NCBI GenBank assembly: GCA_003249035.1
Contig: QBMK01000004.1
Span: forward strand, 156,008 to 218,157
Reading direction: 5' to 3'
Length of the DNA: 62,150 nucleotides
Source of the DNA: Pseudanabaena sp.
Lineage (GTDB): Bacteria; Cyanobacteriota; Cyanobacteriia; Pseudanabaenales; Pseudanabaenaceae
Below are positions 39,374-44,228 of the stretch, in pieces. Position 1 is the first letter of the stretch, and every line of letters starts with the position of its first letter. The notes beneath the pieces were generated by a model that was not told the origin of the DNA, made no database searches, and was given only the letters and a program-made list of their open reading frames with translations. The translations under genes and the position numbers were made by a program.

Positions 39374-40639
39374 TTAAGCTCTCAACACTCGCTTGGCTCT
39401 TGCGAGATAAGATTGGCGATCGGCTAAACCATTTGTGCCGCCATTGATGATTTTTGTAATTGTGAGGATATCATCGCGATCGGCATGATTATTGAGTTTG
39501 CGAGTGTCCCAATACCAACCTGCACTAAGGCAAGCGAGATCGAAATCTGCTAAACGTCTGGGATTGCTAATTAAGTCCACACCTAATGCTCGACCACAAT
39601 CAGCATAGTTTGTTCGTCCAGTAACTTGGATCAAGCCACGTCCCTTAAAGCGCACACCATCTCCAGCTTGAGTATTACCGAGATCTCGTCGTCCCTCATA
39701 GGCTGCGCCAGAGGCATATTCCTCGTTAGTGTTAAATCCATCGCTTTCATGACCCAACTGAGCTAGGAAATGGGCTTTCCGCAATGGCGTGGTAATCGCA
39801 TAGCGCTGCATTGTGGTATTCAGGTGAGGTAGTAATTTTGCAAGGCGATCGCGTTGGGCATAAGGAGCGATCGCGATCAGTTGCTCCTGCGTAATCAAAC
39901 CAGATGTGTTATCTTGATTAACTTGAGCAGTGGGAGGATATAAGCCTTCATAGGGCTCTTGATCTGGGCGCCGTGGCGACAAATTATTGAGGACTCGAAT
40001 CGTGCTATCAACTAGTACATCTTTAGGGTTGAAATCATCTTTGAGTCCGGTAATTAATTGCTCCAATCGTCGCGCTGCTAATTTACGATGTTCAGTCAGA
40101 TTGGGTGCTTGGTAAAGCCCTTCATAGGGTTTGCGTAAAATTGGACGCAAAGTCAATCCACTCATCACCCTGATCAAGTCATCAATTCTGCCATCAGCAC
40201 TATTGGTTTTCGGATCGGTAATATTCGCGATCGCCGCAACTAAAGTCTGCGCAGCTTGTTTGCGCCATGTTGTCAAATTCGCCGCAGGAAAAAGTCCTGA
40301 ATAAGGCGATCTCCCTGTTGTTCGGGGCGGCAAATTACGCAAAAAGCGAATCAAATCATCGATCGCCCCATCAAAAATGCTACCTTCAACATCAGGAATC
40401 TTTGGCACGGAAGCCTGAAGAGTTAAGGCTGCTCGACTGCGCCAAGTTGGTAAATCGGCAGCAGGAAGAATACCGGCATAGGGCTGTCGATCTTCTGGAC
40501 GTGCTGGCAAGTTGTTTAGCGCACGCACTAGATCGTCCACCAGTCCATCTTTTTCATTGATCGTACTTCCGGCTATCTTGGGAACCAGAAATGCAAGGGT
40601 TGCGGCAGCTTGCGATCGCCAAATCTCAACTTGTTTCAT
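39374..40639 (-). CDS. GH19 (chitinase/endolysin-like) hydrolase with four N-terminal repeats
   Basis: A 421-residue protein. Residues 1-240 consist of four repeats of about 59 residues, each with a W/H-R-x-x-A-A-x-x-L start, a D-x-x-I/V-D-D-L-I-R-x-L core and an R-x-P-Y-x-G-L/I-x-P-A end. The C-terminal GH19 domain shows H-E-S-D-G-F with the acid glutamate, Y-E-G-R-R-D-L-G-N-T, and F-K-G-R-G-L-I-Q-V-T-G-R. It should cut peptidoglycan or chitin-like beta-1,4-linked amino sugars. No signal peptide is visible, so export would need a phage-like or contractile route, or it acts on lysed cells. The repeats may bind cell wall. Confidence 0.85.
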   Translation of the reverse strand: MKQVEIWRSQAAATLAFLVPKIAGSTINEKDGLVDDLVRALNNLPARPEDRQPYAGILPAADLPTWRSRAALTLQASVPKIPDVEGSIFDGAIDDLIRFLRNLPPRTTGRSPYSGLFPAANLTTWRKQAAQTLVAAIANITDPKTNSADGRIDDLIRVMSGLTLRPILRKPYEGLYQAPNLTEHRKLAARRLEQLITGLKDDFNPKDVLVDSTIRVLNNLSPRRPDQEPYEGLYPPTAQVNQDNTSGLITQEQLIAIAPYAQRDRLAKLLPHLNTTMQRYAITTPLRKAHFLAQLGHESDGFNTNEEYASGAAYEGRRDLGNTQAGDGVRFKGRGLIQVTGRTNYADCGRALGVDLISNPRRLADFDLACLSAGWYWDTRKLNNHADRDDILTITKIINGGTNGLADRQSYLARAKRVLRA

Positions 40640-40779: not shown

Positions 40780-41709
40780 TCATCTTATGAAACGCCCAAA
40801 AATCAATTTAACAAAGAAGGGATAGCGGAAAAAGATTTTGCCCAAAGCACCAACTATCCATTGACGCAAGCTAATAATTGCCACAGGTAAATATGGCTCT
40901 AGATAAGACTCTAGCGCCCTAATCAATGTGCCAGAGATACCTATTGGATTAGTAAATTTGAGTGCTATCCAACAAAAAATTAAGATTACGATCGCGACAA
41001 TAGCTATCAATCGGGAAATCGGTCTTTCTAAAAGATGAAGTAAATACGCAAATAACTTCTTTGCCAGCTTTGGCATGTTGGGCAATGTCAAATTCAGTTT
41101 GGAATAAATCCACCAAATCATTAGAACCACAATTGGAGCAGCGATCGCGATGTGCCAACATTGCCTGGTGAAAACTGAACTAAAACTTTCTGGCAAATTA
41201 AGGCGTTTACCAAGATTTTGCAGCGGTTCACACCATGTAATCGTCGAGGCAAAAGATAAAGTAGCGATCGCAAATGGACGTAATTTTTCTTCGACATAAT
41301 CAGCGATCGCCGTCATAAATTGTCGCGAAATTTGACTGACCAAAAAACTATGTGCCTTTAAAATGCGATCGGCTTGTGGATGATTCAAAATATCTTGACA
41401 AACCTTTTGAGAAAGATCTCCATCAATATTCATTATCGTTCGCAATATCGGTGAAGGCTTTGCCTCGGACTCATTCACTGCCCGATCATTGTAATAAGTC
41501 CAAATTGCGATCGTGCCTTGCCGTTGGGCAGCCATACCGACACTAGAAGCTAATACTTGCAATAATTCTTGACTGTTAACTCTATAAATAATCTCGTTAT
41601 CAACAGCTACGCACTGAATAGCCAGATCGATCTGGTCAAGAACGCTGGGGTTAAGCCATAAACTAATTTCATCATCGACAATAGCCAACCAATCAGGCGC
41701 AGCCACCAT
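40780..41709 (-). CDS. Unknown membrane protein carrying a DGD...D...H domain
   Basis: A 309-residue protein I do not recognise. Residues 1-155 hold a soluble domain with I-A-I-W-T-Y-Y-N-D, then N-I-D-G-D-L-S-Q-K-V-C-Q-D-I and a later A-H-S-F-L-V-S-Q, matching motifs in the next two upstream genes. Hydrophobic helices lie at about residues 190-205 and 235-255, with a further amphipathic hydrophobic stretch near the C-terminus. The first domain probably faces the cytoplasm. Gene ends at a 20-bp-arm palindrome and is preceded by another, so it may have its own transcript. Confidence 0.65.
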   Translation of the reverse strand: MVAAPDWLAIVDDEISLWLNPSVLDQIDLAIQCVAVDNEIIYRVNSQELLQVLASSVGMAAQRQGTIAIWTYYNDRAVNESEAKPSPILRTIMNIDGDLSQKVCQDILNHPQADRILKAHSFLVSQISRQFMTAIADYVEEKLRPFAIATLSFASTITWCEPLQNLGKRLNLPESFSSVFTRQCWHIAIAAPIVVLMIWWIYSKLNLTLPNMPKLAKKLFAYLLHLLERPISRLIAIVAIVILIFCWIALKFTNPIGISGTLIRALESYLEPYLPVAIISLRQWIVGALGKIFFRYPFFVKLIFGRFIR

Positions 41710-41742
41710 AACTCCGTATTTTGATCATGTATGCCTTATCCC

Positions 41743-41775
41743 AAAGCACAAAATGGCGTAGCCATTTTGTGCTTT
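41743..41775. terminator. Perfect palindrome, 15-bp arms, GTA centre
   Basis: Arms 41743-41757 and 41761-41775 around TGGC-GTA-GCCA, between two genes of the DGD-H cluster on the minus strand. Confidence 0.88.
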
Positions 41776-41883
41776 TAAAACCCTTACTAGGTTTGCTTTT
41801 TAATTCACAAAAGTTTGACGACACCTTTGTGAATTGGTATTACTTTTCAGTAAAGAAGACTCTTTATATCTTCATCGACTGAA

Positions 41884-42762
41884 TTATTTAGCTCGGAATG
41901 GCATCAAATCTTTAACTAGATTTACACAAGTCATAATCAATCCCGTCCATTGTTGCTGGGCATTTTCTACCGCTTGACTATGTAAATCAAAAACCAGCTT
42001 TGCCATCTTCGGATCAATTTTGCTTTTAGTTGAGACAAACAAATCATCTAGAAATTTATTGCTCAGATCTCCATCAAGCTGAAATTTTGTTTGAGCATAA
42101 ATGCGTTCACCATTTAAAACTGATTGCTCCAACTCCCACAACTTGCGAAAATAGCGAATCATCGGCGCATCAGTAATCACTCGACCGTTAGCATCTTTCA
42201 GAATATTTAACGACAGTACTTTCTGAGCTAGCTCTTCATAACAAGCTTGTTCGATCTCAAATTGTTCTTTCTGTCTTGGATCGGTCAGATTTTGGCGATT
42301 GCTAAATGTGTTTTCCGCTTTCTTATAAATTTCTAAATCTTGATTGTATCGATCAAGCTCAGCTTGAGTAACTGCTGAACCTTTTTTTTGAAGCTCTTTA
42401 CTGCGATCGAGGAGAGATTTTTTGAGGTCTTGCAAACCATCCTTAGTCTTATACATAATACTTTCGAGAAGATTAGCATAAAACTCTTTTGCATCAAATC
42501 TGGTGATCGGAATATAGCTAACGATAAATGTACTCACTTCCAGCTCCGTAATTTCTTCTAAAACATCTTTGATTGCTTCTCGAAATTCATGGAGGCTAGT
42601 ACTCTCTCCAGCACCGTCTTTTTTTTTAGTTGGCGCTGTTAGGGTAGAAGCGGTAGGTGTCAACTGTGTAAATTGACTATTTACGGGCTTTTTTCCATCA
42701 TACTTAACCAGCTTGGTATTATCTTCGGCATTACTTGTATTGCTTGTAGCTCGATCTTGCAT
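41884..42762 (-). CDS. Unknown soluble protein with DGD...D...H domain and coiled coil
   Basis: A 292-residue protein with no recognisable family. It has a low-complexity T/K-rich N-terminus (1-55), then F-R-E-A-I-K-D-V-L-E-E-I-T-E-L-E-V-S-T-F-, a charged helical stretch at 90-180 that may be coiled coil, and near residue 225 K-F-Q-L-D-G-D-L-S-N-K-F-L-D-D-L followed by L-H-S-Q-A-V-E-N-A. The same order is found in the two flanking genes. No signal peptide or membrane segment. It starts 39 bp after the stop of the 144-residue gene, suggesting an operon. Confidence 0.65.
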   Translation of the reverse strand: MQDRATSNTSNAEDNTKLVKYDGKKPVNSQFTQLTPTASTLTAPTKKKDGAGESTSLHEFREAIKDVLEEITELEVSTFIVSYIPITRFDAKEFYANLLESIMYKTKDGLQDLKKSLLDRSKELQKKGSAVTQAELDRYNQDLEIYKKAENTFSNRQNLTDPRQKEQFEIEQACYEELAQKVLSLNILKDANGRVITDAPMIRYFRKLWELEQSVLNGERIYAQTKFQLDGDLSNKFLDDLFVSTKSKIDPKMAKLVFDLHSQAVENAQQQWTGLIMTCVNLVKDLMPFRAK

Positions 42763-42801
42763 ACAAATTCCTCAGCGACAGGTCGCATAAACTAGACGCA
42801 A

Positions 42802-43236
42802 CTAGACACGACTGAAGATGCGATCGCTACTGAAGTCAACAGAGTCTTCTGGCTCTGGAGTACTTCCACCATTTAGAAGCCCTGTAACCTTCTCACCAAT
42901 ATTGACTAGAGTTTTGAGATTATTAGCGATCGTCTCTGAGCCTTTCTCAACTTGCATTTCATGGAAGCCGCGTAGTTCCGCATAGGGAGAACCTGGCAAG
43001 AAATCTGAGCCCAGCTCATTTTCGATATCACCATCGATCAGGTTGATCGTTGTCTTTAAGCGATTACCTGCTCTGTGGGTAGTATCACCTTCATGAGCGA
43101 CCCAAGTCACTATTTCTAGCTGCACAAGGTCAGAGAACACCTCAACCAAAGCGTCGCCAAAGTTTTTGGTTTCTTTAAGCTTGCTTTGAAAACGCGCTGA
43201 CGCTGTTACTGATACAGAAGAATTTGCATACGTCAT
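42802..43236 (-). CDS. Unknown small soluble protein with DGD...D...H domain
   Basis: A 144-residue protein, the shortest version of the domain shared with the two following genes: F-G-D-A-L-V-E-V-F-S-D-L-V-Q-L-E-I-V-T-W-V, T-I-N-L-I-D-G-D-I-E-N-E-L-G-S-D-F, F-H-E-M-Q-V-E-K-G, then an L-V-N-I helix. It could be the minimal, self-contained form. The ATG at 43236 was taken in place of an adjacent GTG. No known family recognised. Confidence 0.65.
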   Translation of the reverse strand: MTYANSSVSVTASARFQSKLKETKNFGDALVEVFSDLVQLEIVTWVAHEGDTTHRAGNRLKTTINLIDGDIENELGSDFLPGSPYAELRGFHEMQVEKGSETIANNLKTLVNIGEKVTGLLNGGSTPEPEDSVDFSSDRIFSRV

Positions 43237-43415
43237 CACTTGAACCTATATCTAAAAAATGACAATTTCTGATTAATGCAGCTACCGAGATAAAATCTTT
43301 ATCACTTAAAATATAGACTTTTTAAAAATAAAAGAGCTTGTATAAATCGATTTTTTATAAATCTTTTATAAATTAGTTTGGACTAAAGTAACTTAAGCGA
43401 TTTCATTAAACAATT

Positions 43416-43679
43416 TTAATGATAGTCAGATAACTCAATTAATTCCATCGGCACAAAGCTTTCTTGTGGTAGCAGGATCAGTTGAGAGTAAATAAGTTTG
43501 CCAGTCATATCTATGCGATTGATCGCTATTCCCATCGGACGAGGTAGTTGGGCTGCATAGGAATCAGCATAATAGCGGTAGATCTGCTTAGCTGCTCTAA
43601 TGATCATCGGATCGACTTTTTTGGCTACAGGTTCTGACTGGCGCTCTGGATATTCGATGCGTTGGGCGGCATATGACAC
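43416..43679 (-). CDS. Unknown 87-residue protein
   Basis: A small protein starting with GTG, supported by AAGGGG eight bases ahead. It has a charged N-terminus (E-Y-P-E-R-Q-S-E-P-V-A-K-K), a helix A-A-K-Q-I-Y-R-Y-Y-A-D-S-Y-A-A-Q and a strand pair I-A-I-N-R-I-D-M-T-G-K-L-I-Y-S-Q. No match to a family I know. Its position between the DGD-H genes and another unknown gene on the same strand suggests a shared pathway. Confidence 0.6.
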   Translation of the reverse strand: MSYAAQRIEYPERQSEPVAKKVDPMIIRAAKQIYRYYADSYAAQLPRPMGIAINRIDMTGKLIYSQLILLPQESFVPMELIELSDYH

Positions 43680-43841: not shown

Positions 43842-44228
43842 CTATAAGCTAGCAGCAAGTTTAATCCGAAATAACTTGCTATAAAAGGTTTGTGGGAAGT
43901 CGACATAGCCCTTATCCCGAATATTCGAGACGACATCAATTAAATAGCCGACAAATTCTGTATTGTCCAACGTTATTTCATAGCTCATGTCAGCATCGCC
44001 TTCAAAGGTGACGCGGCATAATGATATATCCATCGGTAAGTTGGCAACACGCCATACTGCCATAAACGAAACAGGAGTACTTCCTTCAATGTGTCGTTCG
44101 CCAGTGATTTCACCTTGTTTATACAGGGAAAATGCGTAGGGGAGAGCTTGACGCCTGTTTGGCTCTCGGTAGTAGGGCATGTAGATTGAAACTTCCTGAG
44201 GAGAAGCTGCTTTGAGGTCGATCGCCAT
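43842..44228 (-). CDS. Unknown 128-residue protein
   Basis: A small, probably all-beta soluble protein starting M-A-I-D-L-K-A-A-S-P-Q-E-V. It contains strands such as S-L-C-R-V-T-F-E-G-D-A-D-M-S-Y-E-I-T-L and a C-terminal F-Y-S-K-L-F-R-I-K. A single cysteine. No signal peptide. First gene of the minus-strand run of unknown genes 44228-40780. Family not recognised. Confidence 0.6.
   Translation of the reverse strand: MAIDLKAASPQEVSIYMPYYREPNRRQALPYAFSLYKQGEITGERHIEGSTPVSFMAVWRVANLPMDISLCRVTFEGDADMSYEITLDNTEFVGYLIDVVSNIRDKGYVDFPQTFYSKLFRIKLAASL

Follow-up and report, generated by a model that had tools for sequence, protein, structure and literature searches.

Three adjacent genes in the window, the 62,150-nucleotide stretch of Pseudanabaena sp. 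DNA analysed here, encode proteins that share one domain, and the relatives of these genes in other cyanobacteria stand in an order that does not change. We named the genes C, B and A after the order of transcription, and D an extra gene of other lineages in which a second C-type domain is fused to a long acidic tail. The ancestry of the domain, the fixed gene order, the co-occurrence of the genes, the near confinement of predicted membrane segments to A and the repeats of a short motif in the D tails were computed directly. The products of A, B and C probably belong to a common complex. What is new is a protein family and a gene module, nameless in the libraries searched; no new mechanism is claimed.

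Table 1. Features of the module and its neighbours, in window positions.
Feature	Position	Strand	Basis
C gene, minimal soluble domain, 145 aa	42802..43239	-	ORF; GTG start at 43239, ATG at 43236
C: common alpha-beta-beta-beta-alpha domain, residues 27-123	42871..43161	-	AlphaFold2 model, mean pLDDT 80
B gene, 292 aa, same domain with helical insert	41884..42762	-	ORF
B: first helix and strand 1 of the domain, residues 55-80	42523..42600	-	Model, mean pLDDT 82
B: helical insert, residues 91-217, mainly helices	42112..42492	-	Model
B: strands 2-3 with D-G-D turn and histidine helix, residues 220-291	41890..42105	-	Model; hhalign alignment to A, E 4e-7
A gene, 309 aa, domain and membrane segments	40780..41709	-	ORF
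A: common domain, residues ~62-140	41290..41526	-	Profile alignment only
A: predicted membrane segment 1, residues 184-202	41104..41160	-	Hydropathy scan
A: predicted membrane segment 2, residues 234-252	40954..41010	-	Hydropathy scan
EbsA, type IV pilus biogenesis protein (the 128-residue gene of the initial annotation)	43842-44228	-	NF045587, 1.6e-47
87-residue gene	43416-43679	-	No family match (Pfam, NCBIfam, PHROGs)
GH19-type hydrolase	39374-40639	-	PF00182; repeats in N-terminal half (by eye)

The initial annotation had proposed that a hydrophobic strand, a D-G-D motif and a histidine-bearing helix recur in this order in three neighbouring proteins that share one domain, and the order is indeed present in each of the three ORFs. 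When the domains alone were aligned with hhalign, the scores (C-B 25.8, C-A 26.5, B-A 39.9) exceeded every column-permuted control (60 per pair; maxima 19.4, 14.3 and 18.7), and the domain of A, B and C almost certainly shares a common ancestry. Reversed profiles scored 22.0, 19.3 and 12.8 for the same pairs; C-B is the weakest case because its reversed profile reaches 22.0 as compared to the real 25.8. This domain-only comparison came after weak full-length scores from the larger alignments, in which the hhalign probability was 3.8 for C-B, 14.4 for C-A and 71.8 for B-A, as compared to 46.6, 81.5 and 91.2 with the first alignments. The annotation's expectation that profiles should recover the three proteins from one another was borne out in part. 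The A protein of the window was recovered by the B profile both from a set of 4282 ORFs (E 2.3e-5) and from the whole genome (E 1.9e-4), while neither C nor B of the window was matched by another family's profile at E<=0.01 among the 4282 ORFs; C and B are cross-matched through other members, the best being the B protein of L048 found by the C profile (2.1e-4), which also reaches the A protein of L040 (E 0.0027). Judged by these profiles C is the most distant of the three families, with cross-matches limited to some members. In the assembly that holds the window, the C profile has a single match, and the B profile matches B once and, as its second match, A.

AlphaFold2 models of C (H6-24 H27-38 E40-46 E60-66 E72-76 H87-123; pTM 0.63) and B (H55-70 E73-80, helices within 91-217, E220-228 E233-237 H251-291; pTM 0.65) predict the same helix-strand-strand-strand-helix order rather than unrelated folds, with additional helices in B between strands 1 and 2. 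The initial annotation had distinguished a minimal, a membrane-anchored and a coiled-coil version of the domain; C and A fit the first two descriptions, and what had been taken for a coiled coil is a helical insert within the domain of B. Residue counts come from alignments of C/D (73 sequences), B (51) and A (57). The turn glycine is present in 178/181 sequences (C/D 72/73, B 49/51, A 57/57) and the last-helix histidine in 179/181 (C/D 73/73, B 50/51, A 56/57), and strand 1 carries a threonine in all 73 C/D and all 51 B sequences, and a threonine or serine in 49/57 A. The aspartates flanking the glycine vary, the first being kept in 37/73 C/D, 47/51 B and 28/57 A sequences and the second in 43/73, 42/51 and 48/57, respectively. 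D-G-D thus loses the defining status it had been given; since the aspartates are variable and the threonine, glycine and histidine conserved, the signature is T...G...H. D-G-D itself is a frequent variant of a beta turn, not a catalytic motif, and it was rejected as an active site because its aspartates vary. The near-invariant helix histidine of C, B and A could equally well serve a ligand or metal site.

A, B and C are genuine ORFs under purifying selection. When compared with one relative of the same genus and with two named loci of Pseudanabaena, C has a dN/dS of 0.09-0.12 and A of 0.22-0.27; B has 0.10-0.17 in two pairs, the remaining pair being saturated. The gaps between the genes in the window are 39 nt for C-B and 174 nt for B-A. 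Predicted membrane segments are almost confined to A: a simple hydropathy scan, duplicate loci included, found at least two hydrophobic segments in 61/77 A proteins and fewer in the other 16, and none at all in 88/89 C, 83/84 B and 44/48 D proteins.

A profile search found C in 39/386 genomes of the phylum and B in 31/386, and all 31 genomes with B also have C. Within the genus Pseudanabaena, C occurs in 24/26 genomes, with exactly one C-type match in each of the 24, and A in 25/26; one genome of this genus (G400, 99% completeness) has neither C nor A. The profile search of the genome contigs gave 72 loci. We gathered a total of 93 loci, five of which repeat others by identical protein, leaving 88 non-redundant loci, a set that still includes near-identical strains and some loci cut by contig ends. 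In all 88, the members lie on one strand and always in the order C-(D)-B-A, with members missing in some. C, B and A occur together in 69 of the 88; the arrangements are C-B-A (39), C-D-B-A (30), C-D (6), C-D-B (5), D-B-A (4) and others (4), where the short second C of L049 and L050 was entered as D. Where there is room on both sides, 54/65 loci have a complete C-B-A or C-D-B-A. The median spacing between B and A is 9 nt (77 pairs with mechanically assigned start codons, the five duplicate loci included). The full set is not always needed, because 8 of the 39 genomes with C have no B match at E<=0.001 and some loci have C and D only (L047, L183-L186). At these five loci we saw only C and D, and by eye their turn motif is degenerate. 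In a quick and poorly resolved tree of C and D domains, D falls mostly apart from C, and among named sequences those closest to C of the window are from Pseudanabaena.

The tails of the D proteins (n = 48) have a median length of 420 aa, ranging from 114 to 1809, a median pI of 4.05 and 28% Asp+Glu. The motif [DE]W..[WFLIVM] occurs 145 times in 49 distinct D tails, as compared to 27.6 expected and a maximum of 44 in 200 shuffles, and is present in 40 of the 49; typical repeat forms are EDWGDLVE and DEDWDDWVV. The five D tails of L047 and L183-L186 all end in a motif of the IDW-x-[ED]-x-[DN]-W type. Ten D-type proteins had no family match in Pfam. Among the loci gathered, no D was seen in those of Pseudanabaena type or of Nostocaceae.

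We propose that the paralogues A, B and C are subunits of a single heteromeric complex, in which the shared alpha-beta-beta-beta-alpha domain joins them and which the C-terminal segments of A would fix to the membrane. B and C, accompanied in other lineages by D, would sit on A from the cytoplasmic side. The varying D-G-D aspartates disfavour a catalytic role for them, and the complex may act as a non-enzymatic scaffold or adaptor; we put this role forward tentatively, as we do the whole reading of a membrane-tethered B/C(/D) complex with such a function. In species with D, the acidic, tryptophan-punctuated tail would offer a partner many copies of a short binding motif, and in Pseudanabaena the minimal C-B-A version would do the job without D. 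That the genes work together, as the initial annotation had it for soluble and membrane-bound versions, is supported circumstantially by the unbroken order in 88 loci, by the presence of C in every genome with B and by the joint absence of C and A from G400. Gene order by itself does not demonstrate a complex. The account is weakened by the near-invariant histidine, by the genomes and loci with an incomplete set, by the 16 A proteins with fewer than two segments and by the third protein of Azospirillum, described below, which has no significant A match. Wider still, and rather doubtful, is the idea of an undescribed family that has relatives in an alphaproteobacterium and forms, in cyanobacteria, a membrane-docked heteromeric platform on which a D tail of up to ~1800 residues gathers copies of a partner; if true, the complex would organise something at the thylakoid or plasma membrane. 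The family went unnamed in every library searched, yet is near-universal in one genus and present in about a tenth of the genomes of the phylum searched. The defined set of C, B, A and optional D also occurs in relatives of Nostoc, and the D tail motif could be used as bait.

Neighbouring genes were surveyed at 86 loci (the duplicates were left out, as were L033 and L035), loci cut by contig ends counting as misses. The surroundings vary and the module is constant, lying downstream of PsbP-Maf, petC-petA or EbsA, or divergent from an FtsH/pabC cluster. Of the 45 loci with D, 26 are preceded by a Maf gene in the same orientation and 18 by PsbP, a divergent FtsH gene is found at 21/41 loci without D, and petC-petA precedes the module at two loci. 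At the Nostocaceae loci (L038-L041) a gene of ~261 residues without a Pfam match lies divergent from C (24/41 loci without D). EbsA and the 87-residue gene lie upstream at 9/9 loci of Pseudanabaena type (the window, L031 and seven others), the 87-residue gene standing between EbsA and C in all nine and being 76-94% identical in the other eight; the GH19 gene lies downstream of A in eight of them, and the ninth (L148) ends at a contig edge.

Outside the cyanobacteria, a tblastn search of plasmid records with one D domain matched seven records, all Azospirillum, and a second query, a cyanobacterial C, found the same seven records; a cyanobacterial B query gave no match in the plasmid records. 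The Azospirillum genes stand one after another and encode hypothetical proteins of 157, 283 and 189 aa. The 157-aa protein matches the C profile (66 bits, E 1.4e-21) and the 283-aa protein the B profile (24 bits, E about 1e-8), both E values being for a set of only ten sequences. The third has a D-G-D and, by hydropathy scan, one hydrophobic segment; its match to the A profile is not significant and the helix after its turn has no histidine. All three genes directly follow parA-parB in the three records examined, and in one of these stretches (L195:9718-14818) parA-parB, the C and B relatives and the third D-G-D protein are followed by a reductase gene.

The closest likeness among known proteins is to YbaB/EbfC (PF02575, which includes the plant relative STIC2). 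Fold searches with the C and B models (Foldseek, VIA-align) gave no significant match. The best four VIA-align matches for C were 3f42, 1ybx, 1j8b and 1pug (Z 5.1-5.4, 77-80 residues aligned; a Z below 8 may, by the tool's own note, reflect merely a common arrangement), and the next, unrelated match had a Z of 4.2. All four are sequence relatives of the genome's own EbfC (phmmer 2.6e-22 to 0.0033), and ranks 2-4 of Foldseek for C were 1j8b and 1ybx, with E about 1. The predicted order of a helix, three strands and a long helix is that of YbaB/EbfC, and the C fold may therefore be a YbaB-like arrangement. Unlike YbaB/EbfC, the clusters described here contain three or four paralogues, with membrane segments, a helical insert or a long acidic tail, and the sequences show neither a PF02575 match nor a profile similarity above controls. 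PF02575 was not found in the three window proteins (Pfam, E<=1), among the best 25 of 29 families for 73 C/D members (E<=0.1), or among the matches listed for B (51 members) and A (57 members), both at E<=0.01. A profile of 30 cyanobacterial EbfC sequences, a narrow set that makes a weak test, scored no family above its permuted maximum (C 21.0, in the wrong register, as compared to 25.3; B 10.1 to 16.9; A 14.1 to 14.8).

These results bear on several other explanations. In the first, the domains would form YbaB-type dimers whose targets could be ribosomes, nascent chains or a membrane insertase, as is reported for STIC2, and A would hold these dimers at the membrane; we consider this explanation by analogy unlikely. 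For it speak the four top matches for C, the Foldseek ranks and the several neighbours that are photosynthetic membrane genes (PsbP, petC-petA) or FtsH; STIC2 is described with the topology alpha1/beta1/beta2/beta3/alpha'/alpha2, which resembles the element order of C (PMC11480477). The low Z and high E values count against it, however, as do the EbfC scores within the permuted controls, the lack of YbaB among the listed structure matches of B, which are dominated by the helical insert, and the ordinary EbfC that 36/38 relatives also carry. To our knowledge Azospirillum has no thylakoids, which also argues against this explanation. Equally, the genes could be tandem duplicates, co-located yet acting independently. 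Paralogues often stay in tandem, and C and D are found without B and A at L047 and L183-L186, but order and strand persist across differing surroundings, those of C and B across two phyla, which makes independent action improbable.

The remaining explanations start from neighbours or distribution. The neighbours in Pseudanabaena would fit an accessory role of the module in type IV pili or the cell envelope, tied to EbsA and the GH19 hydrolase. This is quite improbable, as BLAST found none of EbsA, the 87-residue gene and GH19 within the gathered stretches of the other 79/88 non-redundant loci, and other clades have different neighbours. EbsA belongs to a different protein family, and pilus-gene linkage, as judged by EbsA, extends to 9/88 loci, all of Pseudanabaena type; the wider co-occurrence with GH19 and the 87- and 128-residue genes raised by the initial annotation is likewise confined to these loci among the stretches searched. 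The position directly behind parA-parB in three Azospirillum records would suit a function in a ParA/ParB-type system, as its cargo or as a positioning factor. However, of 146 plasmid records with a ParA relative (E<=1e-30), 54 of which are Azospirillum, seven carry C and B relatives and most have no match to either, so the ParA link is most readily interpreted as the partition locus of one replicon type; the association was found in Azospirillum records only, and no ParA was noticed on reading the listed cyanobacterial neighbours, leaving this role very improbable. An anti-phage defence system would agree with the patchy distribution (39/386 genomes) and the plasmid-borne relatives, but it is hardly credible for a module that is near-universal in one genus (24/26), has no match in phage records or viral contigs, and for which PADLOC gave no convincing match in seven proteins (best 0.0057, to part of the Azospirillum C protein; window A 0.071).

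Searches of Pfam, NCBIfam, PHROGs, PADLOC and PDB sequences returned no convincing match, only weak and scattered ones, such as Peptidase_S49 in 3/73 C/D members (best 0.0031) and a best PHROGs match of 0.0069 for C; in these libraries the family has no name, as the initial annotation had said. A literature search, made without the locus tags of homologues, returned nothing pointing to the module in the portions of text it covered. A phage or viral origin was rejected, there being no match in phage records or viral contigs and none at E<=0.001 among predicted viral structures. A link to PHA granules, prompted by the reductase gene downstream in Azospirillum, was also rejected (PhaE in 5/39 C carriers and 18/347 other genomes, Fisher p 0.07). 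As for gas vesicles, GvpA had no match in 23 of the 39 C carriers, the window's genome included, and was found in the other 16, as compared to 39/347 genomes without C (p 1e-5, uncorrected for kinship).
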